Shown here: in pieces, positions 1-56,939 of the stretch
How positions within the stretch are numbered: the stretch's first letter is position 1
Layout: every line of letters begins with the position of its first letter
NCBI GenBank assembly: GCA_019448385.1
Contig: JAGTXO010000059.1
Coordinates: 1-64,000 of the forward strand
Direction: 5' to 3'
DNA: 64,000 nt
DNA from: Diacronema lutheri
Lineage: Eukaryota; Haptophyta; Pavlovophyceae; Pavlovales; Pavlovaceae
Translations under genes and position numbers: made by a program
The notes under the pieces: generated by a model
The model's database searches: none
Told to the model about the DNA's origin: nothing
Seen by the model: only the letters and a program-made list of their open reading frames with translations

Positions 1-1790
1 CTGCGCGCCCTTGTGTTCGCGCAGCCCACTTGCCCACGCACACGAGCAGCCGGTCGCGCGTCACGCCGTCGACACAGTGCGCCGCGATGAGCGCCTCGGC
101 GACGCGCGCCGCGTTGGACCGCCCGCCGCTGTCGCGCCGCCAGCGCTCCTTCCGGCGCGCCGGCGCGTCGTACACGTGCTCGGCGGCGCGCTCGCGCACC
201 CGCGCGCTCCTCGCGGTGGAAGGCGATGTATTTGCCCGCGTCGAGCACCTTGGCGCTGTGCGCCTCGCCAAGCCGCGCCTCGTCCGCCTCCACGCTGAAC
301 TCCTCGCCGCGCCCGTCGGTGCGCACGCGCCGCCGCGCCGCGTTGGTCTTGGCCGTCTCGCGCGCAAAGCCCGCGGCGCGCGCGCGCGCGCGCTGCGTGA
401 ACTGCCGCCAGACTGCCGCCCGCCCGACGTGCGCAGAGTAGGTGGTGATGTTGCCCATGTTCGGGTCGGCCGCGACGACGACCGCCGCCTCGACGTCGAT
501 CGCCCGCCGCAGCTCGGAGCCGAGCGCGACGGCGATGCGCCCGTCCGGCCGGCGCCAGCGGTGCAGGACGCCCGAGCCGCCGGCCGGCGCCTGCGCCTTC
601 GGCACGAGGACGGTACCCGACGGCGTGCACGGCGACGCCATCTGTCACCACCGACGTGACGGGCTTGCCGGCCCGGGAGCGGCACGCGCGGCAGCGGCGC
701 GAGGCCCACCCACGAGCGCCGCGCGTGCCACGGCAGATCGGCCGGCGGCCGCTCGCGCCCGGCGTAGTCGAAGACGCGGTTGGAGATGTCGAAGCGCGTC
801 GCAAAGACCGCGTACCTGACGCGCACGTCCGACATCGGCGGGGTGTTGCCGTTTGTGCCTGTCCACTTGATCGGCTCGCCATCGTGGTCGCGCAGGTCCA
901 GCGCCTTGAGCCGCGCGCGCAGCTCCTTGCGCTCGTCATCCGAAAGCGTCACCCAGATGGCGTTCGCGGTGAGGCGCACGTTGCGCGGCACCTGCGCGCA
1001 GCGCGCGGCGCGCGAGCGCGCGGGCGCGTGACCAACCTGGCCGCGGGGCGGCGCGCACGGCGGCGGCGCGCGGCGCTTGGGCGCTCGGCGGCGGTAGCGG
1101 CAGCCGCGCCTCGCGCGCACATTGTGCGTGCGCAGCGGCGCCACATTGTACCGCGGCGGCCGTCCGGTCAGCCGCGTGTGGATGTGCGCGAGCCGGCAGA
1201 GCAGCGCCTGCCCCTCGGCCACGTGCTGCAGGGTGCGGATCTGCACGAGGAAGTAGCGCGTCGTGTGCCGGTCGTAGTTCCACCTTTTCGTGGGCGTGCA
1301 CTTGTAGTCGATCTTGTGGAGGACCATGTCGGGCAGGTGGCGGTCGAGCGCGGCGGGGCAGCCGACGCGCGCGCCCTCCACGTCGCCGCGCAGCAGCCGC
1401 TCGCACAGCTCGCGCACGCGCGCGTTTCGCTGCATCTCGGGCAGCGCGACGAGCGCCTCGTCGCGCTCGACTGCCGCGCGGACGACGTCGCGGAGCAGCC
1501 CGTTCACGACGCGCGATGGGTGCATCAGGCACGCGGTGGACACCTGCGTCGCCTCCGCCTCGAGGATCTCCGTGAGGCCCACCGCGCAGACGGGCTGGAC
1601 GCCCTCGGCCATCTCGCCGACGGCGCGCGCCGTCGCCGCCTTGGTCTGCGCGGCGGCTTGCTCGGCGGGCTTGCCTCGGGGCGCTGCACCGTACGTGCTC
1701 TCGTCCTTGTGCCAGCCGATGGCCGAGAAGATCGCACGGACGGATCCCTTGTCCATCGTGGTCGACGTGTGCACGCTGGTCGACGGGCCG
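1..1790 (-). other. Fanzor (eukaryotic TnpB)-like nuclease region, broken by frame changes and cut by the window edge
   Basis: The N-terminal part (1.75-1.2 kb) has the helical pattern of Fanzor proteins: EATQVSTACLMHPSRVVN, a Leu/Pro-rich helix, then HKIDYK and a Tyr-rich segment TTRYFLVQIRTL. Next comes a beta-rich part, then VTSVVTDGVAVHAV (about 695-640), resembling the TDG strand that precedes RuvC-I in Fanzors. AVVVAADPNMGNITTYSAHV follows, whose Asp codon (465-467) matches the RuvC-I aspartate. The sense sequence moves between all three minus frames (about 690, 600 and 205), so this part is disrupted or sequenced with errors. The RuvC-II Glu and the zinc finger would lie left of base 1. 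Fanzors are RNA-guided endonucleases carried by eukaryotic transposons and giant viruses. The family call is by eye. Confidence 0.5.
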
Positions 1791-4700
1791 CCCGACGCCG
1801 CGCCGACGGCCTGCGCGCTCGCCACCGCAGCCTCGTCGCGCACCACCTTGTTGATGACGCGGTACGCCTGTGTCGTGAGCCTGTGCACGGCCGCCGCGAT
1901 GCGCCGCAGCTCCTTCCGCGCACCGGGCTGCGCCGTCACCGCCTGCGGCCCCGCGTTGAGCGTCGAGCGCTTGACCACGAAGCCCGGGAGCACGCTGCCG
2001 CGCGTGCGCGCCGTCGCGCCGCCGGCGGCGCGCGCGCTCGGCGCAGCGGGCTCGTCCACGCGCGCGCGCTCGACGCCGCGCGCGCGGGGAACGCTCGGCG
2101 CGCGCGCGCCCGCGGCGTCGCGCGCGCTCGCGGCGGCACCCGCCGCGGCGCGCTTGCCCGCGGCGCCCGACTCGCCGTGCGCGCGAAGCGGCGCCGACGC
2201 CAATGCCGACGCCGCGCCCGCGCCGCCGCTGCCGCTGCCCGATCCGCCCGCGCGCCGCTTCTGCTCGTCGCGCGTCTTGCGGAACTGGGCGACGAGGTCG
2301 CTGCTCACGTTGGCCTCAGGCTCCCACGTGTCGGCGCTCTCGTCGTAGCCCCGCCACCTGATCCGGAACTGGAACGTCACCTTCTTGCCCGCCTTGCGGC
2401 GCTCGTCGACGACCGCCTCGACCTCGTACGTGCGCGCCTCCTCGTCGACGCTCGCGCCCGCCGCGCTCGCGCCCGTGTCCGGCCACCCAGCGACCGTGCC
2501 GCCCAGCCTCTCGGCGGCCGCGCGCAGCTGCCGCTCGCGCTGGGCGGCCGCGGCGCCTCGCGCGACCAGCGCGGGCAGCATGCCCGCGCCGCCCGCGAGG
2601 CCGTGCGCGCCGACGCTGGCGGTCATCAGCGCGTCGAGGCACGCGAACGTTGCGAGCGCACGCGCGCCATCGTCGCCGCCGCGCGGCTGCGAGCGCACGA
2701 CGGGCGATGGCCGCGGCTCCCCCTCGGCCGCGAGCAGCGGCCAGATCGCACTGGCCAGCGCGACGGCATGCGCGCCGACCGCGACGGCCACGTCCGCGTC
2801 GAGCGGCGCAAAGTCGTAGCGCACGAGCGCGGCCGGGCGCGAGTCGTCCGTCGGCCGGTCGGCGACGAGCAGCCCGACCGGGCGCGGCGGCTCGCCGGAC
2901 GGCGCGGCGACGGGCACGCAGAGGAGCACGACGAGCAGGCGCGGCGTGCCGCCGAGCAGCGCGCGCGCGGCATCCGCCCCGTCGGCTCCGCCGCGCGCGG
3001 CCGCGGCGAGCAGCTCGGCCGCGCGCGTCGGGCCCAGCGCCGTGCGCGCGTCCTTGCGCGCGCGTGCGCGGGCCGTGTACGCGGCGCAGGCGTCGTCGAG
3101 CACCGCCGCGCTGGGCGCGGTGCCAGTCGTCGCCCACGCGCGCAGCGCGTCGCGCACCCGCGTGACGATCGCCTGGTCGACCGCCGCCTCGCCGGCAGCG
3201 TGCGCCGGCGCGCACGCCGGCGGTGCGGCGGCAGGCGCGAGCGCGGGCGCGCCGTCGGCGCCGTCAACGCCGACGGCGCCGTCGGCGCGCCGCCACGCGA
3301 GCTTCGCCTCGATCTGCTGCCGGACGGCGTGGCAGTGCCGGTCGATGCCGCGCGCGTCGTCGAGCGCGGCCAGCGCGTCCTCAGCGGCGGGACGGCCGCT
3401 CGCGTCCGCGACGGCCTGCAGGCAGAGCAGCGCGGCCGCACGCGCGTTGCACGCGCTCTGCGGCTCGGGCGCGAGCGCGAGCTCGAGCTCGAGCGGCGAC
3501 GCGCCTCGCGCCGCGGCGATCGCGTCCATCAGCACGTCCAACCGCTGCACCAGCGCCCTGTGCGCGTCGCGCGGCGCGCCCGTCGACGGCGCGCGCGAGC
3601 GCGTCGCCACGAGCCCGAGCGCGCGCGCCGGCGCGCCCGCCGGCGTGTGCAGCACGAGCAGCGCCGCGCCCGCCAAGCTCGCGTTGCGCGTGACGAGCGC
3701 GAAGATGCGCGTCGCCTCGTGCGCGCCCACCGACGCCCAGATCGCAGCGCGATCGGCGTCCGTCTGCGCGTCGCACAGGTCGCGCACGTCGTCCGGCGCG
3801 AGCAGCGCGCCGCCGCCGGCGGAGCGCGCGACGATCGCCCGCGCCTCCGCCACGAAGACGGCCTGCGGCAGGTCGGCGTGGCGCGCGTCGACGATGGCGC
3901 GCGTCGCGTGCACGCCGAGCTCCACGCCGCGGTAGAAGGCGCGCGCGTTGGCCGCGCGCGCGTGCGCCGGCCGTCCGTCCGCGTTGCGCCTCGCGCGCGC
4001 CTGCTTGCTCGTGCGCGCGAGGCCGTCGCGTGGCGGTGGCGGCAGCGTGGCGAGGAAGCGCGCGGCGGGCGGCGGCGCGCGCACGCCGCGCTGCCGCCGT
4101 GCGATGGCCGCGAGCCGCCGGCCCGCCGCGCTGCCGCCCGCGCCGACGTGCTGCCGGCGGCCGAGCGCCGCCGGTGGCGGCGGCGGCGGCGGCGCGGCGG
4201 CGGGCGGCGGCGCGACGGCGGGCGGCGGCGCGGCGGCGGGCGGCGGCGCGGCGGCGGGCGGCGGCGCGGCGGCGGGCGGCGGCGCGGCGGCGGGCGGCAG
4301 CGGCGGCGGCGCGGCGGCGACGGCAGCACCAGTCGGCTTGTCCGCCCACGCACCCGAGACTCTGTCCCAGACCTTGCCCCATGGCGCGCGCCCACGCGGC
4401 CGCGCGAACTGCCCCGGCTCGAGCGCCTGGCCGCGCTTGGCGGCGGCGGCGGCGGCAGGGGGCGGGCGGCCGGCGCGCCAGTCGAAGACAGGTGCAACCG
4501 TGGCGGCAGGCGCCGAGTGCCGCGCGTCGGTCACAGAGCGCGTGGTGCGCGCGGCGACCGTGGCACGCCTGGCGGGCGGGCGGTGAGCAGCGCCCGCCGG
4601 CGCGCCGGCGGGCGCGGCCGCCTCGAGCCCGGCGGAGGCGCCGCGCTTGCGCTTGCGCGTGCCGCCGCGCGTGCGCCTGCGCGCGCGCCCGCCGCGCGCC

Positions 4701-7700
4701 CGTTCGGCCTGCGCGTCGCCAGCCGCGTCGCCGGCCGCGTCGCCGCGCCGCACGTAGACGACCGCGAACGCCTCCTCGCCGGTCCCGTCGACGCCGCCGC
4801 GCGCGCGGCGCAGGACCGACCGCCACTGCAGCCGCCGCGCGCGGCCGGGCTCGCACGCAAACCAGCGCCCACCGCGCCTGACGACGGCCACAAAGTCGTC
4901 GTCGCGCCGCCCGCGCCGGCGCGTGCGCAGCAGCACGCACTGCACGTCGAGCCAGCCCTCGTGCCAGTCGGCCGTGCTGGGGGCGACGCGAATCGACTGC
5001 GGGAGCTCGACGCCAAAGCCGGCGAGCCGCACGATGTGCGCGACGATGACGCTCGAAATGGCGGGGGCGCTCGACGGGTCGCCCGCTGCAGCGAGCACCG
5101 CCCCGCCCCAGTGCTCACGCGTGACGCAATCCGCGTCCTCGACGTGCACGTGCGCCACGCTCGCGCCGAGCTGGTGCAGCAACGCGCAGATGTCGGCGTC
5201 GACCGTCCTCTCCTCCTCGGCCGCCTCGGCCGTGCCGCGGGCGGCGGCGTCGCCTGCCGGCTGCCCGAGGTACGCGATCGCCCGCTCGACGGCCGCGCGC
5301 TCCGCACGCGCTGCGCTGTCGATCGCCGCATTGCCGACGGGCGCGCGCAGCGCCGCGATCGCGTCTTGCAACGCCGTCGCGTCGCCCGTCGCCGCCGTCG
5401 CCGCCACCGCCGCCGCGCTCGCGGTGCCGTGCGCGACGGCGTGCAGCGCGGCGGCGCGCGCGGCGGGGATGCGCCCGTCCAGCGCGAGCACGAGCGGCGG
5501 CCCGGCCGGCGTCTGCTGCCGCCGGTGCCGCCGGCTCGCAGCCGGGTGGTCGGCGCGCGCGCGCTCGAGCCGCGCGCGCCGCTCGACGACGCGCGCCCAG
5601 AAGGCCTGCACCCTCGGCTGCGCGAATGCAAGCCAGCCGGCGCCGCGCGTCACGACGTGCACGACGATCCGGTCCTCGTGCCTGAGGTACTGCACGTAGA
5701 GCGCTTTGCGCACGCCGAGGACGTGCATGCCGAGCTGCAGCTGATCGCGGTGCGGCTGCGGCGGCCCGTCCTCGTGCGCCTTGGCGTCCGCCTTGGTGAG
5801 CGTCTTCACCTCGACGAGGACCTGCTCGTTGTCTTCGGGGAGGATGGCGAGCCCGTCCGGCGAGAAGGCGAACGGCGCGCTCTTGTCGTGCGGGTCCGCA
5901 CGCACCATCGGCAGGTTGCACACGACGGTGATGCCGTACGCGGCCGCCAGCTTGCGCAGCGCGACGGCCTCGCCGAGGATGCCCGCGGTCGTCGCCTTGG
6001 TCCGCACCTCGCGCCGCCGCCGGTGCACGTACTCGTCGGTGAGCGTCTCGTGCGCGACGCCGGCGTTGTCGTTCACGACGTCGCCAACCTTGCTGCCCGT
6101 GACCTCCTCCCATCGCTCGTCGTGCCAGCGCGGGCTGCGCTGCGCGGGCGCGCCCGCGCCGACGGCGTCGAGCACGCGGCGCAGCGCTGTGCCGTCGGGC
6201 GCAGCAGGCACGCGCGCGCGGTCCTGGGCCTCGCGAGCGTCGAGGACGCAGCCCGTAGTGGAATCTTGGGGTGGGTCGAGCTTGCTCGCCTCGCCGTAGC
6301 GGCTCTCCAGCTGGCGCGGTGCGTCGGCAGGGCCGCCGTCCGTGCGCGCACCCGACGCGCCCGCCAGTGCACGGGGCGCAGCGTCCGAGGCGCCCGCCGC
6401 GCCCGCGCCGCCGCCAATCGCGCCAGCGCACGCGCGCGCCGCGACCTGCGGACGGCCAGCCGCAGGGACCTCGTCCGCTCGGCCGGCCGCTGCGTCGGCC
6501 GTCCGCTTGGCCACCTCGCGCGCGTCTCCGAGCGCGAGCGTGGCTGGCGCCGTCGAGCTCCCGTGGCGTTTGTTCCAAAACTCGAGCAGCCCGCCAAGGA
6601 AGGGCGTGCCCGTCGGGCGGTCCTCGGGCACCTCCGCCAGGATCGCGTCGACGCGCAGCGCGGCCGCCACATCGCAAAACGCGCGCGCGGCGCGCGCCAT
6701 CCGCTCGGCGCGCGCGCCGCCGTCGTCCGCCGCGCGGCGGATGGCGTGGCTCACGTGCGCGACGCGGAGCGAGACGACGGCGTGCGCCGGCGCGTCGGCG
6801 CCCGTGCCGAGCGTGTGCCGCCGGATGGCCAGCTGCCCATCGCCCATGCGCGGCGGGAGCGACGCGCACGCCGCGACGGTCGTCTTGCCGGCCGCGCTGT
6901 CGCACAGCCAGCTCGCCTCGCCGCCGCCCGCAAACTCAAAGGTCGCGAAGCCCTCGCGGCCGAAAAGCGCGACGAAGTGGTCGAGCACCGCCTTGTTGAT
7001 CGCGCGCGCCGCCGGCCGCGTCGATGCGCCGCGGGCAGCGCCACCCGCCGCGCCGCGCGCATCGCTGCACGTCGCAGGGCAGGTGCAGCCGGACGCGCGC
7101 ACGCCGTCCGACCGCGTCCGCGGCAGCTCGAGCTCGCGCACCTTGGGGCAGAACCAGAGCGGGTTGGACGCCTCGAGGCACAGCACGACGAGCCGCCCGT
7201 CCGTGCCGGCCAGCGCGCGCGCGTCGCGCAGCAGCTCGACGGCGAGCTCGGACGTCGCCGCGTGCACCGCCGGCTCGCCCGTCGCGCGGTCGGGCGGGAA
7301 GAGGCCGCCGCCGACGAGCGGGCTGGGGCAGCGGCCGAGCATCACGAGCAGCGGCGGCGGCGGCGTCTGCGGCGCCTGCTGCCCGACCGCAGCCGCCGTC
7401 AGCCCGGCCAGGTCGGAGCTCGTGCGGAGGGCCTTGAGCGCGACGCGCGAGCCGGTGCCCGCCTGCTCGGAAAACGTGGCGAGCATGGCGCACGTGCTCG
7501 CCCTCGCGCCGCACTGCCAGCTGACGCGCGCGAGGAGGCCTTCCAGCGTGTCGTTTTCGCGCGGCCGCGTGACCGCGTCGAGCGCCGCCGAGTCGAGCTG
7601 GAGGCTGCCGGGCGTGACGCACAGCACCGCCTCGTGGTAGGCGCGCAGCAGCTCCCTCGGCAGCTGCTCGGCGGGCGTCGCCGCCTGCCCGCCCACCCAC

Positions 7701-9836
7701 CGTGCACCGTGGCCGCCGTCGCCCGCGCCCGCGAGCCGCACCGCCGGCCCGCCCGTGATCGCCGAGGTCGGTGGCGTGCCGAGCGCGTCGACGAGCGCGC
7801 GCACGGGCGCGACACGCCTGCGCGCAGCGTCCGCGCCGACGGCGAGCGCGGCGATCCGAGCGCCCTCCCATGCGCGCTCCCTCGCGTCGTCCCGCGCGGC
7901 CGCCGGCGCGGCGCCCGGCCGCGCGCCGGGCGGCACCGCGCACGCCGCCGCGACGACCTCCGCGCGCGCGCCGGCGGCGTCGGGCGCGTGCAGCTGCGCG
8001 AGCGCGCCAGAGAGCGCGGCGGCCGAGCGGTAGCGGCCGTGCGCCGCGACGAGCGCGTAGAGCACGCGCAGCGCGGCCACGCCCGCCTGGTCGGGCGCGT
8101 CGTCAGCGATGCGCTCGACCTCCCACGTGCGCGTGGGCGGCGGGCTGCCGTCGGCCGGGTCCGGACGCAGCGCCCACGCGCGCTCGACGATCGCGTTGAA
8201 CACGCCGTGCGCGGCGCCCTCGTCAAACTCGGCGGCGCCCGCCGCGTGCGCGCACCACCCGTGCACGCGCGACGTGGGCGCGTCCACGGCGCGCTGCACG
8301 ACGAGCACCGCCGGCCGGTCGACGCAGCCGAGGCTCACCGCCGCGTGCTTGCCCTCGAGCAGCGCCGCCGCCGCAGCCTCGACCAAGGCGTCACCAGGCG
8401 CGTCGCCGACGACGACGGCACAGCCGTCGCCGTACTCGGCCTGCATCGCGGCGACGCACGACGCGACAAAGTCGCCGCCCGCGGCCGCCGCGTGTCGCGC
8501 CGCCAGCATCCGGCGCGCGATGGCAAGCCAGACGTACTCGGCCGGCGCGCGCGCGGCGCGCGCGCGAGGCGCGCCGGCCGCGCCGCGTGCGCCAGCGCGT
8601 GCGCCTCCAGCGGCCGCAACGGCCGAGGCGGCTGGAGCGGCGGTGAGCGTGCGCCGCGCGCGCTTCGCCGGCCGCGTGATGGGCGATGCACCCGCCGTCG
8701 CCCCGCCCGCAGCAGCCGGTGCGGCCGCCACAGCGCCCGCCGCAACGCCACTCGTCACGACGCCCGTGGCGGGCGGCGCGGCGGCGGACGCGGCCGCCTC
8801 GACGGGCGTCGCGCAACTACCGCCAGCGGTCGCGGACGCGCCCGGCGACGCGTCGGCGAGGAGGTGGCGCAGCACGCCGCGCGCGAGCGCGACTCGCACG
8901 GCGAGCGTCAGCGCGCGCAGGCGGTCGGAAGGCGAGGCGTCGCGCTCGGCGTCGGCGGACGTGGCGGCAGCAGGCGAGGCGGCGGGCGGCGCGGCGGCGG
9001 GCTGGGCGGCCGCCGGCGCAACCTCGTCGGCCTTGGCCAGCCAGACGAGCCCGGCGACTGCGAGCACGACGCTGTACGCGCCGACATCGTCACCCGCAAC
9101 GCGCGCCAGCCGGGCGTGGGCGTCGGCCTCGGACACGGCGACGTGGAAGAGCACGTCGTCGCGGGCAGCTTGCTCGGCAAACTGACGCAGCTGCTTGGCC
9201 ATCGTCACGCCGGCGACGCACGCCTCGCCCGCCTCTGCCTCGACCTGCTCGTCCTGGCCGATGGCGGACGCGCCGGCCTCGGCGCCAGCGTCGAGTGTCC
9301 GGCGGCGCTCGAGGGCGAAGCCACGCACACAGACGCTCTGGAGGCCGCCGAGCGCGCCCGCCTTCTCGTGCAGCGCGCACGACAGCTCGACCACCGAGTC
9401 CACGCGCCTCGCGGCGGCGCCCCCCCGCTCGCCGCGCGTGGCCGCGCGCACGACGAACACCGTGAATTGCGCGCGCTTCGCCGCGCGCGCCGACGCGCAC
9501 GCGTGCTTCAGGAGCCGGCAAAGCGCGGGCCTTTGCGCCGCTGCGCCCCGCGTGCACAGCAGCAGTTGGCCGCGCTCGTCGCCCAGCTCCTGCTCGATGG
9601 CGGCCTCGAGCGCGTCGTCCGTCAAATCGCCGTGCTCCGTCGAGGCGAGCGCGCGCGCAGCCGCGAGCGCCAGCTCGCCTGCGCCCGCGCGCCGCCGGCG
9701 GCGCGCACCGGCGGGCGCGTGCGGCGCCGACGCGTGTGACGACGCCGCCGCGTCCGCGCGCGCACACGCGGCGCGCAACGCCTCACGCGCCGAGGCGGCC
9801 GCGCGCGCCCTGGGCGCGAGCTTCAAGAACGTGCGC

Positions 9837-9884
<48 letters not shown>

Positions 9885-12800
9885 TCGCCCTCGTCGCCGG
9901 CCGGCGGCGGCGGTGGCGGCGGTGGCGGCGCGGCCACGGCGGCGGCAGCAGCGGCGGCGGCGGCGGTGGCGGCGGCGGCGGCGCCCAGCGCGGGCGGCGG
10001 CGGCGTGGCGGCGGCGGTGGCGGCGGCGGTGACGCCAGCGGCGGCCTTGGCGCCGCGCGTCTGCGGCGGCGTTTCGGCGCGATCGGGGCTGCCCCCGCCA
10101 CGCACCGCGCTCGTGACCGCGCAGACGCCGCCCGGCGCACGATCGCTGGCCGCGCCGGTCAGCGCGACGCGGAGGCGCTCGCCGACAGCGTACATGTCCG
10201 CCACGCTGAACGTGCGCGGCGCGGACGAGCAGCCCGCCGCGGCGAGCGCGTCGTTGAGCGCGCCCACTATCGCGAGGCCGCACGTCGCGCCACGCTGCGC
10301 CGCCTCGTTGAGCAGCAGCGCGCGGCGCACGCGCGAAATGTCGAGACCCGCCGCGTGCAGCGTGGCAGTTATCGCCTTGGCGAGCATGAGCGCCTGCCTG
10401 CAGGGCGACGCGAGCGTGTCGATGAGCACCGCGTCGTAGCGATGCTCGCCCGCGCGCGCGACGCGCACAAGGCGCAACGCGGTGAAATGGCCGGAGGCGA
10501 GCTGCGCGCCGTCGTCACCGCCCGCGCCGCCGCGCTCGTCCGACGGGCTCCACACGCCGATGACAGCCTGCGTTGTCGCCTCGCTGCGCAGGCGGTGCAG
10601 CAGCGCGGCGCGCTCGGCGCCGTCCTGGAACACCGCGGGTTGCGCGGCGAGCGGCACGTGGCAGACAGGCCCGCCGCCGGCCTGCCCGTGCACGCGCAGC
10701 ACGACCTCGCAGCACGCGTCGACGGTTGAGGCGAGCATGTCGCCGCTGGCGATGCGCTCCACCTCTGCCTGCGGGAGGCCGGCGCTCGCGGCGGCGGAGG
10801 CCAGCCGGCGCGCAGCCGCGTCGCCCGCCCACGCCAGCAGCGCCGAGTTGGCGGGTTGGAGGGGAAGCTCAAGGGCGGCTGGTTCGGTGGCGGTAGCCTC
10901 GTTGGCAACGGGCACGTTGGCGGTGCGCACGTTGGCGGCGGGCGCGGCGGCGATGGCTGGTGGGGCGGAAGACACGCCCGCGGCGGCAGGCGCGGACGCG
11001 ACAGCGGCAGCGACTAGTGGGGCGGGGAAAACGCCGTCGGTGGCTGGCGCGGAGGCGAGTGCAGGAGCAACTAGTGGGGCGGGAAAATCGGCGGCAGGCG
11101 CGAAGGCGGATGCAGCAGCGGCTAGTGCGGCGGGGAAAACACCGTCGGCGGCAGGCGCGAAGGCGGATGCAGGAGCGCCCAGCGGGGCGCAGAAAACACC
11201 GTCGGCGGCAGGCGCGAAGGCGACAGCAGCAGTGGCCAGTGGAGCGGAGGCGCAGGGCCACGCGCGCGCCAGCCGTGCAAGCCCAAGCCGCGCGCGAGCG
11301 ACGCACGCGCCGATGGCCGAGGCGGCGGCGCAGGCCACGACGTGGCCTGGCACCGGTGTGGCCAGCCGCTCGCGGGTGTGCACGTCGAGCCGCGCCCCAC
11401 GCCAAGAGCGGCGGCGCGCTGAACGGAGGCGCGCGACCCCGATCGATCCGCCCGCGCACGCGCGCGCCGGCTCAGTGTGGCCCACGCGCGCCGCTATGCA
11501 AGGCGCGCGCGCGATAACGGCGGCTGTCGGCCGTGGCGTGCGCGTGGCGGCGCCGCGGCGACGGGCGCGGCACACGAGCCGCTCGGGCGCGCCGCCGCCG
11601 CGCGGCACGATGTCGAGCAGCACGGTCACGCCGCGCGCGCGCGCGACCGCCGTGCACGCGAGCCGCACGGGCAGCGGCGGCCCGTCCGGGCGCGCGAGCG
11701 CCGCCACCTCGGCGTCGGTGAGGCTGTGCAGCTCGCGGCGCGCGCGCGCGAACGCGGCGATGTCCGCGCGCAGCTCCGCGTCCGTGCCGAGCGCGGCACG
11801 CGCGTGCACGGGGAGCGACGCGCGCAGCGCGTGGAGCACGCCGCCGCGCGCGCCGCGCGGCGCCGGCGCGCGATCGCGCTCAGCGCGCGCGGCGCGCGTG
11901 AGCTCGCGCACCGCGCGCGCGAGATTGCGCCGCGCGGCCGCGACGGGAGGGCTAGGTGCGCGCGCGCGCCGGTTGTAGCGCGGCCGCGCCGAGTCGAGGG
12001 GCGGCGGACGCGGTGCGTACGCCGCGGCGCGGCCCGCGCGCCAAAAGGCCGGCGGCGGGCGCAGCTCCGTCGCGTCGACCGCGGCCGCGAGCGCGCCGAG
12101 CGCGGCGTCGCTGTCGCCCGCCGCGTCGGCCGCGTCGACGAGCACGAAGAGCGCGCCGAGCGCGCGCGACGCGGCCGCCTGCGCGGCGGTGGGGCGGGCG
12201 CAGGCAGCGACGCATGCGGCCGCCATGCCGCGCGCCGCGGCGAACGCCGGTGACGTGACGGCCGCGCCGATGGCAACGGCGGCGGCGGCGACGGTCGAGG
12301 CGGCAGCGCCGGCGATGGAGGTGGCAGCGGCGGCGGCGCTTGCCATCGCGCGGCGCGCGAGACGCGAGGCGCCACCGACCGCCGCCGCCGCAGCGCGCGC
12401 TGCGCGCGCGCCGGTGGCGCGCATCGTCGCCGCGCCAGGCGCCGCCGCGCCGACGCCGCCGGCGCCCGCGCCGTCGCCGCTCTCGGCCGTGCAGGGCTCC
12501 GATGGCGAACCCGGCGTGCGCTGGCGCGTGATGCGCGCGCCGAGGCGCGCGCTCCGCGCCGCGCGGCCGGCGACGTCGAGGAAGCGCCGTGCGCGCGCCG
12601 CGCGTAGGCCACGCGCGCGCGGCGGCGCACCGACAGGCGCCGAGCGCCGCGGCGCGCACGCCGGCGCGTCGCTGTCGGGTTGCGCAGCGCGCGCGCGGGA
12701 ACTCGGCGCGGCGTGTGCGGGCGGCGGGCGCGCGCCCGCGCGGCGCAGAGGCGCGAGGCGCCGGCCGCAGACGAGGCGTGTGCGCAACCAGGACGGCGAG

Positions 12801-15800
12801 GGCCGCAGGGCGCCGTCGACGTCGCGCATCGGCGGGCCGCGAGCCCGCCGCGCAGCCGTGCGGCGCGCGCGAGGCGCTCGGCGGCGCGCGCGCCGCACGG
12901 CGCGCGCGGCGGCGCGCACGCCAGCGACGGCTGCGGCCACGCCGCGCGCCAACACGGCCGCGGCGTGCGCCATCGCACCGAGCACGGCGCGTGGCGCGCC
13001 GAGCAAGCGCAGCAAGCGCGACGCCGTCGCGCGCGCCGGCGCACCGTGTGCAGGGGCCTCGCCAGCGCCAGCACCGACGCCGCCATCGCCGCAGCCGCAG
13101 GTGGCGTCGCCGCCGCCGCAGGCGTCGCGACGGACGCCGCCGCCGCCGAAACAATCGCCGCACACGTCGCCGCCGACGTTGCCACCCCAGCCGCCGTTGC
13201 GTGCGCAGGTGGCTGCGGCGCGTGCGTGCGGGAGGCGTGCCGTGCGGCGCGCATCACACGGGCTGCGCGACGCGAGCGACGCCGCCGGGGTCCCCGCTGC
13301 GCCAGGCGCGCCGTGCGCGCCAGCCTCGCCGGCCTCGCCGGCGCGCGGTCGCGCGCTCGCCTCGACGTGGCCGCCTCCGCCGCCATCGCCGCCGTCGAAC
13401 CGGGCGGCGGAGAGCTGCCGCTCGAACCGCTCGTCGGCGTCGGCCGCCACCGCCGCCTCGCGCTCCGCCGCCGCGGCGGCCGCACGGCGCGCGTGGCGGA
13501 GCGCGCGGCCGCCGTCCGCTGCGCGGCGTGGCGGCGCGGGCGCGGGCTTCGGCGCGCGCGGCCCCTCGGCGCGCTCGCGGAGCACGGCGAGCGGCGTGCC
13601 CGTGGCGACGCTCGTGCAGACGCGCCGCAAGGCGGCGCTTACGCACGCGTGGACGACGCGCGCCGTCCGCTTGTCGGCGGCGCGCGCGGCGCGGCGCGCG
13701 GCCTTGGCGGCGGCCTTTTTGGCGCGCCTCTGCTCCGCCTGCTCCGACAGCGCGCGCGCCTGGCGCTCGGCTGCGAGCGCGTCCTCGGGCGAAACGGTCG
13801 GCCTCGGCGGCCGCGCGCGCGCGCTGCGACGCTGCGCGCTGCGGCGGTCGGACGGCGGCTGCCGCGGCGGCGAGGACGGCGAGCGCGAGCTCGGCGTGGG
13901 CGACCAATCGCCGCTGACGGTTGCGAGCGGCGCAAACGGGTTGTCGTCCCCGCGACCCGCGGCGTGCGACAGTGCACGCGGCGTCGGGCGCCGGCCGACC
14001 GCTGGCGGGCCCCACTCGGACGGCGGCTCCGAGGGCGAGCGCGCCGTCGGCGCCGCGCGTTGCGCGGCCGGCGGCGCCTCCCGGTCCAGCGCCGCCTGCT
14101 CTCTCGCCGCGGCCTGCTCGTCACCCTCCGGCACGCCACGCGGCGCGAGCACCGCGGTGGCGCAGCGCGTCGCGTTGAGCAACGCCGCCTCCATCTGCCG
14201 CACGCTGGCCTTGGCGCACGCCACACCCTGTCTCGCCCGGCGCAGCGCCTCGTGCGCGCGGCGCACATCCGCGTCGGCATCTTCGCGCATGCCAAAGTGC
14301 GCCTGTTGCAGCCGCAGGTCCGCAGGGCGCCCCTGCGCGCGAGGGGCACGGGCGCGGCGGCGCGCAGGTGACGGAGCTGGCGCGCCGTTCTGCGCTGCGC
14401 GCACGCCAATCGACGGGCGCGCGCGCGGCGGGGCGCGCGCGCGCGCGCGCGCGCGCGCTGCCTACCCAGCCGCCGGCCGGCTCGCGCGAGCGCGCCAGCT
14501 GCTCCGCCGCCTCGGCGTCGAGCACGCGCTGCTGCGCCTCCTCCTCGCCCAGTGCAGCGAGGTGCAGCCGGCGGGCTGCCTTGCGGCAGTTGCCCTCCGC
14601 CTTGCCCACGGCCTTGCGCGCCGCGTCGACGGGGTCGTCGTTGGCTCTGGCGCGCCTGCGCTTGCCCTTGTCGGCGGGCGGCGGCTCGGCGCGCTGCAGC
14701 GTGCCGAGCGCGTCGTCGGCTCCGCGCGCGGCCGCCCGCGGGCGGCGGGCCCCAAAAAGCGCACCGGTCGCCGTGCGCGCCGCGCAAGCAACGACCAGCG
14801 CTGACATGCCGGCGAAGACCGCACCGCCCAGCGCCACGGTTGCCACGATGCGCAGCGTCCCGTGCGCAAGCTGCGCTGCCTCCGCCGCTTTGGCGGCCTC
14901 GCGCGCGCGCGCATCGGCGGCTCTCATCTCGTGCAGCAGCCCGGCCGCGCCGCTCGCGCCGTCGCGGCCGCGCGCGAGCTCGCACAGCACCGCCGCCGCG
15001 CGCCGCGTGGGCTCGCGCGCGAGCAGCTGCGCGCCGCCGTCGGGGCGCAGCTTCTCAACGAACTCGACAAACGTCGCGTCGCGCCAGAGGGACATGCGGA
15101 AGGCCCTGTGCACCGCCCCCTCCTGCTCGCGCATCCGCCGTGCCGCCCGCCTGCCGTCGCGCGCGTGCGCGTGCGCGGCCGCGTCGACTCCCGCGACGCC
15201 GCGCTGCGCGTCGCGCGCGGCCGACGACGGCGCCGCCGCGCTGCCCGCCAAGGGCGCCGCAGCGGCGACGCGCGCGTGCGGAGCGACGGGATCGCCGGCG
15301 GCCGGCGGCTCGGCGCGCTGCGGCGTGCCGTTTGCTCCGCGCGCGGCCGTCCCGGGGGAGGTGGCCGCGATGGCGCCGCCAGCCGCGCCGCGCGCCAGCC
15401 ACGCGCATAGGCTGCCGACGAGCTCGCCGAGACCCCCGACGGTCGCCGCGGCGGCGAGTGCGCCGGGCTTGCCGGCCGACAGCGGCTCGCGAGCGTCGTC
15501 GTCGCAGCCGCCGGCACCCGTCTTGGCGAGGGCGTCGCGCTCGCCCTCGACGCCCGCCACGACCGCCGCCCCTCCGTCGTCCGCCGCGCCGGCCGCGCGC
15601 GCGGCCGGGCGCAGAGGAGGCGTGCCGGTGCAGCCGTCGCCGCTCGTCTTCGCCGTTTCCTCCACTTTGGTCACTTCGTCGCCACCTGCGCCATCTCCGA
15701 CGCCGGGGCCCTTGGTCACGCTTGCCGCCATGCGCGCCGTGCCCGCCGGCCAGCCCGCCGACTGCTCGAGCGCGGCGGCGAGCGGCGCGACGCGCGTCGA

Positions 15801-18140
15801 CTCGGGCGCGCTCTCGTCATCGGGCTCGAGCGCGTTGTGCAGGCGCGCGAGCGCGCGCTCGACGGCCGCGGCGCCACTGCCGGGGGCGCGGCTCGCCGCG
15901 CGCACCGCGCGCCGCCAGGCCGGCGCGAACATGAGCGCCGGCTCGAGCGCCGCGAGCGCGCGCGCCTCGCGCGCGTCGCTCGCGCCGAGGCGCGGCGGCA
16001 CGCGCGCGGCTCCGCGCGGCGCGGTGCCTCGGAAGCGTGGGCTCAGCGTGTAGGCGAGGTGCTGCGGCACGCCGCGCGCCTCCGCGCGCGCGCGTCCGTC
16101 CTCGACCTCGCGCCGCGCCTTCGCGATCGCCGGCGTGGCGCGCGCGAGCCAGTCGGGGTCGGCGGGCAGGTGGATCACGACGAGAATCGGCGCCCAGTCC
16201 AGCCGCGGGTTCTTGTGACGGTCGGGCACGACCCACACGAGCAGCACCGTGCCGTCCGCGCCGCACGCCGCCTCGTAGATCCTGGGCTGCGAGCGCCAAT
16301 CGGGCCTGACGCGCAGCGCCCGCGCGTGGTCGATGGCGGCGGCGCGGTCGCCATTGAAGTGAACCGTCGTCACCTCGCCGATGACGGACCGGCCGGACCG
16401 CCAGCAGAACACCGCGTCCGCCGACCCGCCGGCGATGGCCGCGAGCGATTCGGGCGCGGCGAGCCGCGGCAAGCCCTCGAAGGCGGCAAAGTCCTCGTGC
16501 GCATTGTACACGCCGCCCCAGCCGTCGTGCGCGTACGCGCGCGCGGCCGCTCGTACCGCGCGCGGCTGGTTCTCCACGCCCGACGTCATGTGCCATGTCG
16601 TCCCCGCGAAGCCGGGCTCGCCCAGCTCGGCCCGCACGACGGTACCGTACCCCGCGCCCTGCGTCGGGGCGGCGAGGTGGTGCATGCCCGCGCCGGTCAC
16701 GCCCTCCGTGCGCTGCCGCGTGACGATCGTGCCCGTCGCGTGCGCGAAAAGCGTGTCGACCACGGCGGGCGCGCGCCCGCTGTTCGCCCGTAGCCGCGCC
16801 CTGCCCGCTTTTAGCTGCTCGGGGTCCTTGGCGTCGTACACGCGCGCGTCCGCGTCGCCCTCATCAGGCGCAGTGTAGACGCAGCGGCGTTCGAGCGGCG
16901 CCGAGCCACCGCCGTCCGCCGCCGCCGGCGAGGTTGGCGCCGCGCCCGCCGCCACCGCGCTCGTCGCCGCCGTGCCCGTCGCCACCGCCGCAGCCGCCGC
17001 GCCCGCGGGGTCGTCGTCCCCGTCCTCCGCGCCCTCCCCGTCGTCAGCGGTGGTGGCGTCGCCATCGTCCCCGTCGCCCTCGCCCCCGCCGAGGCTGCTG
17101 AATGGTCGGGGCCCCCACGCCGAGGCGGCGCGCCGCTGCGGCGCACGCGGCGGTGGCGCTCGCGACGGCGGCCTTGGCGCCGCCGCGCCGCGCGGCCTGG
17201 CCGCCGTCGACAGCGCGCGGCCTGCAGCGCCCGTGAGCGCGTCGAGCGCGGCCGTGCGTGCGATGCGGTCGTCGGGCGCGCGCAGCGCCGCCTCGACGGC
17301 CTGCAGCAGCCCGTCGGGCGCGGATCCGCCGACACTGGCATCGCACGCCTCGGCGAGCCGCGCGGCCTCGGCGAGCCGCGCGGCCTCGCGGGTGAACGGG
17401 CCGAAGCGCCTGGCGCGGTCGCCGAGCAGAGCGCCGATGGCGGCGCGGAGCGTGCGCGCGCGGGTCTCCTCGTACGCGGCCGTCGTGAGGCGCGCGAGGC
17501 GCGCGTCCAAAGCCTTCTTGATGTCGACAAGGACACTCGCGCGGCGGCCGTAGAGCGTCGATGCGCTCGCCACGACCTCGGCCGCGACTGTTGCCGCGGC
17601 GAAGCAACACGCGGCCCCACTCTGCGGGGGCGCCTTGAAGGCATCGATGGGCGGCGCTGTTCTGCCGATGCGCTGCGCAAGCTTCTTGATGAGCACGCCG
17701 GCCGCCGTGGCGTACGCCGATTCGCCGTTGCCCAAGGTGCGCGAATCGGCGAGCAGGGCGAGCGCGGCGCCGGGCGGCGCGCCGCGCTGCGCGGGCGGCG
17801 CGAGGAGCAGGTACGCCGCCGTCCAGTGCACGAGGCCGCTGGACGCGCGGAGGCAGAGCGGTAGCACGACCACGAGCACCTGCCCAAACCGGTCCGCATC
17901 CGCGCATGCTTTGCGCAGGTTGCGCAGCGCCACCTTGAGCGCATGCTGCGAGCACCCCGTGTCGCCCACCCTAACCCTGCTCGTGCCGAAATCCGCGTAA
18001 CGCAGCAGGGCGATGAGGCAAGTGGATGGGACCACGTGGGGGTGGGTATCTCCCGGCGACAGAATGGTGCTGAGGGCCAGCGAGAAACTGTCCGAGCCGC
18101 CCCGCCCGCCGGGCAAAGCGTCCTTCACGGAGTCCTCCAT
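1..18140 (-). CDS. Giant multidomain polyprotein, C-terminus beyond the left edge (mobile-element-like)
   Basis: The frame starts with ATG at 18140 (MEDSVKDALPGG) and reads sensibly to about 14440, where a (GC)n run changes frame. The next frame has no stop from 14461 to base 1, about 4,820 codons. A one-dinucleotide length difference in the run would join both into one protein of at least 6,000 residues. Seen domains in order: C48-like protease triad (17.85-17.60 kb), an unrecognised globular region (16.8-15.9 kb), a hydrophobic segment (14.85-14.77 kb), a Lys/Arg/Ala coiled region (13.9-13.6 kb), a second C48-like triad (10.7-10.2 kb), a YqaJ-like nuclease (6.15-5.64 kb), a chromodomain (2.43-2.26 kb) and a Fanzor-like region (1.8 kb to the edge). 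Poly-Ala and Pro-Ala linkers separate them. Protease, nuclease and chromodomain together are typical of large eukaryotic transposons or virus-like elements; that reading is inference. Three frame changes below 0.7 kb suggest the C-terminus is decaying. Housekeeping genes in the same window are intact, so widespread sequencing error is unlikely. Confidence 0.75.
2255..2430 (-). other. Chromodomain
   Basis: The sequence YEVEAVVDERR, then FRIRWRGYDESADTWEPE, then SDLVAQFRK shows the chromodomain pattern: the aromatic Y, W and Y of the methyl-lysine cage, the WxGY core, DTWEPE and a C-terminal helix. It has about 55 residues, the usual length. Chromodomains in retroelement integrases and some transposases steer insertion to marked chromatin. 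Here it lies directly before the Fanzor-like region, so a targeting role is a reasonable inference. Confidence 0.75.
5630..6150 (-). other. YqaJ/lambda-exonuclease-like nuclease domain (PD-(D/E)XK fold)
   Basis: The domain begins with QRSPRWHDERWEEVTGSK, closely matching the N-terminal QxSxxW...R...VT/GxS signature of the YqaJ viral recombinase family. It continues through TAGILGEAVALRKLAAAY (the helix with the early acidic residue), FAFSPDGLAI and LVEVKTLTK, giving the D...ExK metal-binding motif. It ends with HRDQLQLGMHVLGVRKALYV, the Gln-rich helix of this family. Known members resect double-stranded DNA during recombination or replication of phages and viruses and occur in eukaryotic mobile elements. 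All key acidic and lysine residues are visible. I infer a role in processing the element's DNA. Confidence 0.7.
9836..10030 (-). repeat. Poly-alanine and Pro/Ala low-complexity linker (GGC trinucleotide repeat)
   Basis: GGC/GCC triplets dominate. In the polyprotein frame they encode a run of about 15 alanines and a proline run between the second C48-like domain and the next globular region. A similar proline-alanine linker lies at 4170-4320. Both behave as interdomain spacers. Confidence 0.8.
10180..10720 (-). other. C48 (Ulp1/adenain)-like cysteine protease domain 2 of the giant polyprotein
   Basis: In the polyprotein frame the sequence shows SGHFTALRLV (His codon near 10489), then AVLIDTLAS (Asp near 10420), then LLLNEAAQRGATCGLA (Gln, and Cys near 10282). 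This is the His-Asp-Gln-Cys order of clan CE proteases, with the Cys followed by Gly as in the DCG signature. A segment just upstream, ATTQAVIGVW, looks like the strand before the His. The triad is intact, so an active protease is plausible. An alternative is a diverged papain-like fold protein of unknown role. Confidence 0.55.
14405..14461. repeat. (GC)n run coinciding with the polyprotein frame change
   Basis: Alternating G and C fills about 14428-14459, just right of a stop (14462-14464) in the downstream frame. Upstream and downstream protein sense lie in frames differing by what one GC unit more or less would repair. This could be a polymorphic slip, an assembly error or a true disruption. 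Confidence 0.7.
14765..14860 (-). other. Predicted transmembrane segment in the giant polyprotein
   Basis: A stretch rich in V, A, G, L and F, with VATVALGGAVFAG followed by MSALVVACAA, is bounded by polar and basic residues. It is long enough to cross a membrane once. It is the clearest hydrophobic segment of the first 1,200 residues, and it lies just before the (GC)n frame slip. Confidence 0.45.
17590..17860 (-). other. C48 (Ulp1/adenain)-like cysteine protease domain 1 of the giant polyprotein
   Basis: Counting from the start at 18140, the order H105 (in GLVHWTAAY), D132 (in LLADSRT), Q173 and C178/C179 (in PPQSGAACCF) matches the His-Asp-Gln-Cys order of clan CE proteases. Spacing and the HW and DS doublets fit the family. 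It lies within the first 190 residues. Such domains process polyproteins or remove SUMO-like modifiers. Overall similarity beyond the triad cannot be judged by eye. Confidence 0.5.
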
Positions 18141-20046
18141 CTGCAGACTGTGGGCACGTCAGTGTCCGGATGGCGGCCCGGATGATACTTGGGAGAATTT
18201 ACATGATGCCCTAGAGAATGCCCCGCTCTCCCACAACCAGGACCCGCCAGCGCGCCGAGCCTACTCGTTTGCCCGCGCCGCCTCTCTTTGCGCGCCCGAG
18301 CGCGGCCTCCGAGCGCGGCCAACGTCCTCCGGGGGCGTGCATCGTGGCTGCTCGGAGGGGCTGCGACGCGGCGAAAGCTCGCTGCGCGGCCGCAACGTGA
18401 GCGCGCGCGCGCGGCCGCGCGCCGGCCTGCGCTGCTCTGCACGGCCGCGCGCCGGCCTGCGCAGCCTCGTCGCGCAGCGTGAGCGCGAGCGCGCGCGAGG
18501 CGAGCTCGGCGGATGGGTGCGCGGCGGCGTTGGCGGCGGGTGCGGCGGCAGGCTGGGCGGCGGGTTTGGACGGAGAGTGTCGGGGAAGAACGGGGCGCAT
18601 CCTGGCTGGGAGTTGGACGGCGCCCACCACGCGCTGGCGGATCCTGGTTGCCACCACCACCCCCCCCCCCCCCCCCCCGGAGACGAGGACCAGGGGCATG
18701 GCCGACTCGCTGCGCCGCACAGCGCGCGGCGCGCGGCATGCTGCGCGACCTCAAGCACATCCAGCCGCGCTCCGCCCACGCAACGCGCGCAATGCCGCGT
18801 TGCACTGCAGGTGTGCACGTGCGGCTCTCACGCGCACTGTGTTGCACGAACGGCATCACGCCACCGAGCTGCGTCCGGACCACGCGCCGCGCGCAGGCGA
18901 CCACACAGGGGCGCGCCGCGCCGCGCGTGCGCGCCCTCGCAACCGTTGCAGCACGCTCTGCCTTGCACTGCGCCGAGCCGCCGCGCGCTGTGCGCGTGCA
19001 TGCAGGGCGCACGCGTGCGACGAAGCGCGCGCGCGGCGAGGCGCGCGGGCGGCTCGCTGCGCGGGCGGCAACGCGCCCAGCTGCGCCCAGGCCAGGCGCG
19101 CGCCCGCGAGTGCCACCGGGACGCACTGCCCCCGCCGGGGTCGCCGCGCGCTCTGTGTGTGCGCTCGCGCGCTGCGAGCGCGGCGGAACGTTCGTGCATG
19201 GCGCGAAGAGCGCGGCACCCGAAGACGGCTGCCCCGAGCCCGCGCCGGGTGGCAGCGAGCGGCGGCACCTCCTCGGCGAGCCCGCCCCGCGCCTTCCCCT
19301 CCACGTGGCGTTTTGAGGCAGACGGACACGCGCCCACACTGCGACTGGGCACGCTGCTCGAGGCAGACACGCACCCAACGCGCGCGCACCACGCGCCCGC
19401 GTCGGCGGGCCGGTGTGAACGAGCGAGAGCTCGGTGTCGCCAACGGGGGCACGGGCGCGACTTCGGTCCGCCTCTCGACGGACGCAGGCGACGCTGCCGG
19501 GAACTTCCCCGACGCCTGCACATCCAGGGCTTCGAGGTACAGAGCTGGGCAACAGTGCCGCTCGTCACCGATGAGGCGGCCAAGCTCGCTATCCTTGCTG
19601 CCCTCGGCTCCACCAAACAGCCGGGCGACCCAACGGTTCGTGATCGCCTGGCCGCCAGGTGCGAACCGCGCCCGTGCAAGCGCTTCACCCGCATTCTCCG
19701 CCCCGCTGCGGACGTCCGCCTGCCGGCCGCGAACACGGCCGGTGCGCGTTGCCGCCTGGCCCAACACGAAAACCCGCCCGCCCCCGAGGCCGCAGGTCCT
19801 ACCTGCCCAAGCGCAGCCCAACGGCACGCAGACAGCCCGCCTTGGCAACCGACTCGTGCGCGAGCGCTCCGCCCTCCACAAGAGCCTGCCCCACGCCACC
19901 GCCGACGCGGAGCCAGCGCAGCCGACGCCCCTCCGCGACGCTCGCGCCGCAAGGCGCAAGGGCCCCGGCGAGACGGCGTCAACCAAGCCCGCCGCTGGCA
20001 CAGCGCCGGCACCCGGAGCCCACCCCAAGCCCCCGCGCACGCCTCG

Positions 20047-20088
<42 letters not shown>

Positions 20089-20490
20089 ATCGGCGGACCG
20101 ATTGCGTTTTGGTGCGTCAGGCTCAATGCGCCATCGCAGTGGCGGGCCCGCAGACGCAGACGCTGACATGCCCAACGCTGGGCACTGAGGCCGCAGGCCG
20201 GCCCTCCTGGACCTGGCGGGCGAGCTGCCCGCGCAGCGGCCACGCGAGCCTCGCACTGACCGTGGCGGTCGCTGCCACCGTGATAGCTGCGGGTGCGGCG
20301 GCCTTGGCCCCAACCCCATCATCCGTCTTCATCCCCGCCCTGCTCGCGCTCGCGGCCTACGTCGGCAATCCCTGCACCGGGATCCGCCCCGCGAAGTCCA
20401 CACAAGACTTATCCGTGCTGCACGCCAGCCGCGCGCGCCGACGCGCGCCGCTCCCACACGCTCACCTCCGTTTCCGCGGGCGGCCCAACG

Positions 20491-20528
<38 letters not shown>

Positions 20529-21097
20529 CCCCCCCCCCCCCCGGCAGGCGGCCATCGAGCCGCATTAGCACACCCGCCCGGGGCCTCCCGCCGCACCCGC
20601 AGCGGCTCGGCGCCTTGAATCCTCCCGTCCCCCGGGGTGAGGCCTTCAACCCGGGCCCAGCGCGCTCCGACTGCCTCACGCGCGCCAGCGCCAACCTCGG
20701 CGGCATGGTAGACCCCGAGCGAAAAGCCGCACTTCTCGCCGTCCTCGTCAGGCGCAAGTACGTTATCCTGCTCCTACTGCCGACGCGGCTCCCGCGCGCG
20801 CGGACTACTACGCCGGGCAGATCGCCGCAGACGCACGTGAGTGCACACGTGCGGACAAGGCGCACACGCTCGACGTCCAGTTAGCGCACGTGCACGTGCG
20901 CGCCACTGGTCACATTTGAGCGTCCGTGCTCGCCCACAGCGTCGCCATCCACAAGATGCGCGCTGGAGCCATCCAAGCAGGGCTCTGCCTGCTCGGCTTC
21001 CGCAAGGCAATTTGGGCCGCGGACAGCGGACAGCGGACGGCGTGCGCGTGCGAGGTGCGAAAGGAGGAAGAAGGTAGGGAGAGTTGTGTGTGTGTGT

Positions 21098-21145
<48 letters not shown>

Positions 21146-21546
21146 CGGCCGCCGGAGACGAGGACGCACTCACCGCTGTTGGCAATGCGCGCGTCACGGA
21201 GACAACTTGGCGGGCCTCGCACGCAGCTGGGCCGATCGCCGCCGTAGAGATGTCTGCAGCCGTCTCCGCGATGCCGATCGTCGCATCTGTTGGCACCGCT
21301 GCCATCTGCCGCACCCGCGGCCAGGCTGCCGGCAAGGTCGGCGCGTCGGGCTCCGAGCTCGGCCACGCAGGCGATGCGGCCGACGGCGGTGACGCTGAGC
21401 CCAGCGCCGGGTCCAACGGCTCCACGTCGAGCCGGCTGTGAACGAGCATGCTCGCACCACTTGCCCACGCCAGCGCGTCGGACTCAGGCACGTTGTAGAT
21501 CTGCGCGGGCAACGCGCGTGCGTGCGGCAGGCGCGCGCGCGAGCTT
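18141..21546. other. Region without a confident gene between the giant polyprotein and the USP gene
   Basis: The stretch holds C homopolymers at about 18659-18678, 20047-20087 and 20491-20542, a TG repeat plus G43 tract at 21085-21140, and Arg/Pro/Ala-rich open frames on both strands with no domain I recognise. The 18150-18220 part is relatively AT-rich and may hold the promoter of the leftward polyprotein gene. A short plus-strand stretch near 20.7 kb may be a retroelement remnant, listed separately. The minus-strand frame at about 21500-21430 looks like the tail of the USP protein. Confidence 0.6.
20615..20800 (+). pseudogene. Possible remnant of a non-LTR retrotransposon endonuclease
   Basis: The peptide SANLGGMVDPERKAALLAVL followed by VRRKYVILLL resembles the first strand and helix of LINE-type AP endonucleases (N-x-x-G, KR, then an aliphatic strand that normally ends in LQET). 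The catalytic QET is missing, replaced by LPTR, and no downstream reverse transcriptase is visible. A plausible peptide (QGFEVQSWATVPLVTDEAAK) about 1 kb upstream on the same strand might belong to the same decayed unit. This is a weak call resting on one short match. Confidence 0.2.
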
Positions 21547-26948: not shown

Positions 26949-27029
26949 GGCGCGCACGACGTCGCCCAGCCAGAGCAGCCCGGGGCGGGGCGAGTCCGGC
27001 TGCGCGGAGGTCCGGCTCGAGCGGGCGGG

Positions 27030-29163: not shown

Positions 29164-29196
<33 letters not shown>

Positions 29197-56904: not shown

Positions 56905-56939
<35 letters not shown>

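Follow-up and report, generated by a model that had tools for sequence, protein, structure and literature searches.

The window, by which we mean the whole 64,000-nucleotide stretch of Diacronema lutheri DNA analyzed here, coincides with the start of contig C99 and carries, on its minus strand, one copy of a dispersed repeat unit of about 31 kb. Alignment of copies places this unit between position 29914 and a point 1,144 bases past base 1 of the window, with its 3' end lying off the contig; the extent of 1-18140 given in an earlier, sequence-only reading of this DNA was therefore wrong. A split PIF1-like helicase frame and a frame for a USP-like cysteine protease both belong to the element and lie upstream of a giant gene, whose predicted exons and domains are listed together with the other features in Table 1. 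Elsewhere in the window, the minus strand encodes a hybrid histidine kinase with PAS and response-regulator domains (33098-35335) and a DUF7899 protein that extends over two frames, possibly with introns (55392-58354). In the minus-strand frame 51706-39497, the segment 49900-51703 combines a signal-peptide-like start with long (SPPPP)n repeats; it gave no Pfam match and presumably resembles an algal hydroxyproline-rich cell-wall glycoprotein.

Table 1. Coordinates within the window of the element, its left end, and its observed or predicted genes and domains.
Feature	Position	Strand	Basis
Part of the element within the window	1..29914	-	Alignment to copies on C1, C5, C6, C10 and C9; 5' junctions from 11 copies
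Left (5') end, TATATACGGCGCGGTCCGGGCTGG	29891..29914	-	Genome pattern search, up to 2 mismatches
PIF1-like helicase, split frame (26548-25163 + 26201-24675)	24675..26548	-	Pfam PIF1, 1.7e-15 and 3.7e-22
USP-like (ubiquitin C-terminal hydrolase) cysteine protease frame	21550..23043	-	Pfam UCH, 4.3e-8, 33.5 bits (cut-off 23.9)
Exon 1, from first ATG (1,225 codons)	14466..18140	-	Open frame and codon phase
First clan CE protease-like motif order	~17828-17600	-	Motif positions
Predicted intron 1, 163 nt, GTAGGC...CAACAG, phase 0 on both sides, holding the (GC)n run	14303..14465	-	
Exon 2, 13,182 nt (4,394 codons)	1121..14302	-	No stop; codon-phase GC 0.81/0.66/0.91
Second clan CE protease-like motif order, H...D...Q...C	10280..10492	-	Sequence motif and positions only
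YqaJ/RecE-like exonuclease domain, P0001 residues 2772-2962	5576..6148	-	PHROG 434, 5.5e-16
Chromodomain, P0001 residues 4012-4062	2276..2428	-	Pfam Chromo, 5.5e-12, profile positions 1-52 of 53
Predicted intron 2, 129 nt (128 in copy C1), GTGCGC...GCGCAG, phase 0	992..1120	-	
Exon 3, Fanzor C-terminal part, truncated by the contig end	1..991	-	Domain read in copy C1

The minus-strand frame without a stop that the sequence-only reading had described is confirmed, with 4,820 open codons between 14461 and 2, and an upstream minus-strand frame of 1,345 codons (18158..14121) overlaps it. Openness alone is weak evidence, since long frames are common in GC-rich DNA; a plus-strand frame of 3,096 codons is present in the same stretch. 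From base composition, 46 stops would be expected per 4,820 codons, and the longest open run in 200 simulated dinucleotide-Markov sequences had a median of 806 and never exceeded 1,606 codons. Third-position GC is mostly 0.85-0.98 along both minus-strand frames, over about 17 kb, with the second position usually the lowest; it falls to 0.72 in a single 500-nt block covering a tandem repeat at 11.0 kb, and the codon phase switches once, near 14.5 kb. A chance open frame was rejected on the strength of these simulations and of the way in which codon-phase GC tracks the frames, and the long frame is real and coding.

The earlier suggestion was that the 3.7-kb upstream frame joins the longer one if a (GC)n run, at 14.45 kb, is one unit off. 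Such a slip was rejected as the whole story, because the run is equally long in seven of eight copies. The eighth, the unaltered copy C11:796038, forms a single frame of 6,136 codons because its run is 4 nt shorter. Given this constancy, the GT-AG borders, phase 0, and the lack of a codon-phase GC pattern across 14303..14465, a 163-nt intron is the likelier reading and a slipped unit the less likely one. Intron 2 is supported by a database protein, P0005, that begins at the predicted start of exon 3. Relative to copy C1, exon 3 of the window copy contains 1-nt insertions at 666, 615, 210 and 27, so that the last ~660 bases of the listed frame are out of frame; sequencing error at the contig end could possibly account for them. 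With exon 3 taken from copy C1, the predicted product amounts to about 6,193 residues (1,225 + 4,394 + 574 codons for exons 1, 2 and 3), which would be unusually large for a transposon protein. A gene of at least three predicted exons, perhaps with a further exon ahead of exon 1, best explains these frames, and we hold this jointly with the overall reading given below, at a confidence approaching but not reaching an even chance. In 102 of 146 element rows, the chromodomain still lies within an open frame of no fewer than 4,000 codons, these 146 being what remained of 150 scored candidates (from 260) after four higher-scoring rows were dropped as unrelated.

From its N- to its C-terminus, the predicted polypeptide would begin with a protease-like module and continue through long stretches rich in Ala and Arg to a second protease-like module, followed by a YqaJ/RecE-type exonuclease, a chromodomain and a Fanzor-type nuclease. 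The exonuclease call agrees with the RecE-like PHROG profile; TIGR03033 (8.6e-6) and Pfam YqaJ (0.019) also matched, both below their own cut-offs. The domain contains RWHDERWEEVTG, GILGE, SPDG, VEVK and QLQLGM, the motifs expected of YqaJ, with their acidic residues and E-x-K. A tblastn search of phages with this piece returned 49 records, the best at 28.6% identity over 77% (E 1e-5). Because the eight matches listed carry the names of structural proteins (tape measure, tail fiber and the like), this result has little weight for or against the call. The chromodomain also matches PDB chromodomains, from 6.3e-9, and its Y, W and Y presumably occupy the places of the aromatic cage. By eye, the giant protein further shows a degenerate second YqaJ-like region and a USP-like region (minus 15879-16841 and 4952-5494), for which there was no Pfam match.

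For the Fanzor part, the zinc-ribbon/RuvC-III profile PF07282 scored 27.4 bits (3.7e-6) in copy C1, just above its cut-off of 26.3, and P0003 contains AADPNMGN, VPEPYTSMHC and HRDYNAAR, with Asp in RuvC-I and RuvC-III. Fanzors are described as having a set order of acidic residues, a Glu six residues before the first zinc Cys, and DPG near-exclusively in RuvC-I (PMC10711439); here the catalytic Glu lies six residues ahead of the first zinc Cys, in agreement with that rule. RuvC-I reads DPN instead of DPG, which counts against our preferred reading and lowers, without ending, the claim to Fanzor membership, because the source says near exclusively. The database protein P0004, from a contig of 2,435 bases, is 98% identical to the Fanzor part, and P0005, 43-45% identical, has DPG and all three acidic residues; the Fanzor part thus occurs in other records. 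In the genome at large, 31 of 148 listed PF07282 rows (C11:803083 and C1:154701 among them) score above the 31.0-31.5 bits usual for element copies, so the genome probably has other Fanzor families. Taken together, the profile searches bear out the YqaJ-like nuclease, the chromodomain and the Fanzor-like region proposed in the sequence-only reading, the last with motifs largely as published; its clan CE proteases found no useful Pfam or PDB match.

Those protease calls concern one motif order near the N-terminus of exon 1, which is followed by uncharacterised regions, and another in exon 2, and in both the spacing of H...D...Q...C suits clan CE. When ten pieces of the giant protein were scanned with Pfam and two of these ten were searched against PDB sequences, nothing useful emerged for these modules. 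AlphaFold models of the two protease-like pieces, built without an alignment, were poor (pLDDT 44-45); in both, His, Asp and Cys lie near a strand, a strand end and a helix start, the placing expected of clan CE. Structure comparison of both models with VIA-align listed 50 matches each, mostly helical and unrelated, with no clan CE protease among them. Neither the clan CE assignment, suggested by motif order, nor the self-processing that the sequence-only reading considered possible is established. The same observations bear on the possibility that the gene yields one transcript and not one working protein, the product being cut by its own proteases into enzymes, or internal promoters serving separate genes. 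Two motif orders and the similar placing of the three residues would agree with such a division, as would a 21.6 kb class of copies in which PIF1 and chromodomain are spaced by ~15 kb instead of 23 kb, implying that much of what lies between them may be dispensable; set against the low model confidence, the unrelated structural matches and a giant protein in which no cleavage sites were identified, this makes a divided product unlikely in our judgment, though not negligible.

Upstream of the giant gene, the PIF1 frame change occurs at the same place in seven of seven copies and recurs in two copies from a second lineage that has diverged by 4.5%. As the split is common to all nine copies read there, the element has spread with it. 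In 148 of 150 listed rows (150 of 414 candidates were scored) the PIF1 profile match starts at position 69 or later, and it starts earlier only in C86 and C96. Splicing as the cause of the frame change was rejected, inspection by eye near the junction having turned up no GT-AG pair of suitable length. The helicase looks dead, and the split may also reflect recoding at a site common to the copies, or a systematic error of the assembly. PADLOC returned one weak RecD-like match, to the helicase. At L023:2429-3814, the first ~300 residues, before PIF1, resemble viral single-strand-binding proteins and gave no profile match.

Large DNA viruses carry YqaJ nucleases, PIF1-like helicases and cysteine proteases. 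This resemblance is what would recommend viewing the unit as what is left of an integrated DNA virus or plasmid-like element, stripped of its replication and capsid genes and now spreading as a repeat; the giant protein would then be a multi-domain protein of virion or conflict type. The frames scanned gave no Pfam match to the Polinton hallmarks (capsid protein, polymerase B, packaging ATPase), nor any capsid, polymerase or packaging match, and three scans with protein pieces found no relative in 2.9 million viral contigs; we therefore consider a viral origin of this kind very improbable.

That the window contains part of a giant mobile element, as had been proposed, is borne out by dispersed, sharply bounded and near-identical copies. 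Allowing up to two mismatches, the left-end pattern has 237 matches in the genome and the right-end pattern 219, with none for either reversed control. The main aligned pieces of the copies are 98.0-99.7% identical to the window, and one piece is 94.9% identical. At the right junction, 18 of 19 copies terminate in TATAC, with flanks diverging after it (the exception is C9:1155038). Left junctions were drawn from 19 fetched stretches, eight of which lacked an end; all 11 others start with TATATA followed by C (7) or G (4), and their flanks diverge outside. Comparison of the two terminal kilobases gave no convincing terminal inverted repeat, and no target duplication beyond TATA itself was seen by eye in seven matched junction pairs. 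When the first 100 listed left ends were compared with 98 of 100 listed right ends (the other two lie on contigs beyond the left-end list), 58 left ends could be paired, giving size classes of ~31 kb (25), 29 kb (7), 26.5 kb (8) and 21.6 kb (12), with four longer and two shorter. These 58 paired copies alone account for 1.62 Mb, or 3.7% of the 43.5 Mb genome. Contigs C1, C5, C6, C10 and C12 begin within a few bases of the right end of the element; the repeat thus interrupts the assembly, and chimeric copies may be among those counted.

A search for empty sites with 20 flanks found only the flank's own locus for 19. For the twentieth, two paralogues read GACGCGTCATAACG then CGTGACGTCATG, and the element copy reads CATCTATAC then CGTGACGTCATG, which would place the insertion at an AT-rich spot; target duplication is left unsettled by this comparison, because the left flank of the element copy is off the contig. 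The left flanks of L051 and L060 had been candidates for empty sites and were rejected, as both are ends of other repeats. A second repeat family is present at L051:1000-1288 and in at least 39 other places, with ends reading AAGCGTCGTTAG beside TAT/TATA-like sequence and with differing flanks; in L081, two of its ends face each other across TGTATATA.

The last 300 nt of the element are nearly constant, with no substitution from the majority in 18 of 23 copies and 1, 2, 1, 1 and 8 in the remaining five; indels within this stretch occur in five copies. The copy with eight substitutions, L012, counts against our preferred reading. In copy C46 the tail has one substitution and four indel columns, compared with 39 substitutions in 1,488 positions of exon 3. 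Such a constant 3' tail could reflect a guide scaffold or a transposition end, and plain youth or gene conversion could explain it equally well.

Comparisons between copies give mixed signs of constraint on the coding regions. Exon 3 of C46 and C9 differs by 14 synonymous and 25 nonsynonymous changes (expected nonsynonymous fraction 0.808), giving a dN/dS of 0.43 with p = 0.011, as one of five comparisons; this nonsynonymous deficit speaks for our preferred reading. Between size classes, exon 2 shows 23 synonymous and 83 nonsynonymous changes of 106 (expected 0.763) and, in a second comparison, 12 and 50 of 62 (expected 0.783); the resulting dN/dS of ~1.1 indicates no purifying selection and speaks against our preferred reading. 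Exon 2 does not stand out in this respect from the split helicase, whose PIF1 pieces have ratios of 0.93 and 1.20. Between the window and C9, exon 2 has 18 synonymous and 56 nonsynonymous changes of 74 (expected 0.70), likewise with no sign of purifying selection. No stops were seen in four comparisons, which is uninformative because only 0.5 to 1.3 were expected in each. Young copies mostly undergo neutral decay; an older constraint on exon 2 is possible yet unsupported.

No transposase was recognised by profiles in the element frames scanned, a result that also counts against our preferred reading. Serine recombinase (PF00239) and Y1 transposase (PF01797), the enzymes that would mark an IS607 or IS200-IS605 element, had no Pfam match anywhere in the genome. 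Helitron_like_N had a single genome match (C63), compared with hundreds of element copies, and PF00589 (phage integrase/tyrosine recombinase, the enzyme type of Cryptons) had 16; none of these matches lies inside the element spans derived by eye. A highly diverged Rep or tyrosine recombinase may be present within the element. The unit may instead be a non-autonomous passenger, moved in trans by a Helitron2-like rolling-circle element or a tyrosine-recombinase element of the same genome, with a giant protein that would only help persistence, for example by removing ubiquitin/SUMO-like marks or through Fanzor-driven copying. The Helitron and recombinase matches outside the element would supply candidates for such a mover, and the spread of copies with a split PIF1 frame fits movement in trans. 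The lack of a terminal inverted repeat and of a clear target duplication, together with a palindrome near each end, recalls Helitron2, which in Chlamydomonas is known to carry multi-exon Fanzor1 genes (PMC3627910). Against this stand ordinary hairpin energies (z -1.49 and -0.65), the lack, at the very ends, of any convincing inverted match when the two terminal kilobases were compared, and nearly equal numbers of left and right ends, unlike the described one-ended Fanzor elements. We regard passenger status as a real but doubtful possibility.

Our preferred reading, offered tentatively and with slightly less than even confidence, is that the copy in the window belongs to a so far unclassified family of giant DNA transposons that carry a Fanzor, and that the main product of this family would be a fusion of RNA-guided nuclease, resection-type exonuclease and chromatin reader. 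From the ends, copy number, frames and domain matches observed above, we infer splicing, a guide RNA, cutting, resection and chromatin binding as parts of one process. The guide-RNA scaffold is predicted to lie in the 406 bases that separate the Fanzor stop codon from the right end, and the bases immediately outside the right end would act as the guide. The Fanzor part would then cut an unoccupied copy of the site beside the TATA-like motif, the YqaJ part would resect the cut ends, repair would copy the element into the cut site, and the chromodomain would hold the giant protein on methylated histones. Insertion at new sites needs a strand-transfer enzyme, and none was recognised here; it would be either hidden in the unassigned parts of the giant protein or supplied in trans. 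Cut-and-copy spread by RNA-guided cutting is a published model (PMC10432273), and Fanzor-driven copying aided by the fused exonuclease is the mechanism we favor. A bolder version, in which a single polypeptide of ~6,190 residues mobilises a new superfamily through an RNA-guided cut, a fused exonuclease and chromodomain steering to silenced chromatin, with no conventional transposase, strikes us as improbable.

The question of what Fanzor nucleases do for eukaryotic transposons gives this young and abundant family its interest: its nuclease would be joined in one molecule to an exonuclease and a chromatin reader. This arrangement makes cut-and-copy spread directly testable, through the predicted guide scaffold, the predicted guide and the adjacent TATA-like motif. 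The sequence-only reading knew of no described element with this domain order, and within the literature and sequence collections searched this holds: no element with this domain set was found. A database search returned no homologues of P0001 residues 2300-4400 or of P0002 residues 1-720; eukaryotic genomes not being searchable as such, relatives may exist in other algae.

Individual parts of the element nevertheless have counterparts in known systems. The exonuclease resembles the YqaJ/RecE/lambda-exonuclease family in its profile match and motif order and differs from it in being embedded in a giant protein with a chromodomain and a Fanzor. LTR retrotransposons can carry a chromodomain. Like the chromodomain-bearing ones named in PMC6338049, the element fuses a chromodomain to a mobile-element protein; unlike in them, neither a reverse transcriptase nor a DDE integrase was recognised in its scanned frames. 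With Helitron2, as portrayed in PMC3627910, it shares the lack of an observed target duplication and of a plain terminal inverted repeat, palindromes near the ends, and a PIF1-like helicase. It departs from that description in having no recognised Rep/HUH, a helicase frame split in the copies read, no asymmetric terminal repeats found, and a TATA-like instead of a TTTT target. To the Fanzor1-bearing eukaryotic transposons covered in the same paper (Bao and Jurka 2013) it is linked by a TnpB-like gene in a high-copy DNA element and, as in the Chlamydomonas Fanzor1 families, by several (here predicted) exons and a constant right end. It is set apart from them by its length of ~31 kb with no recognised transposase family, and by a Fanzor placed at the C-terminus of a predicted ~6,190-residue protein that also contains an exonuclease and a chromodomain.
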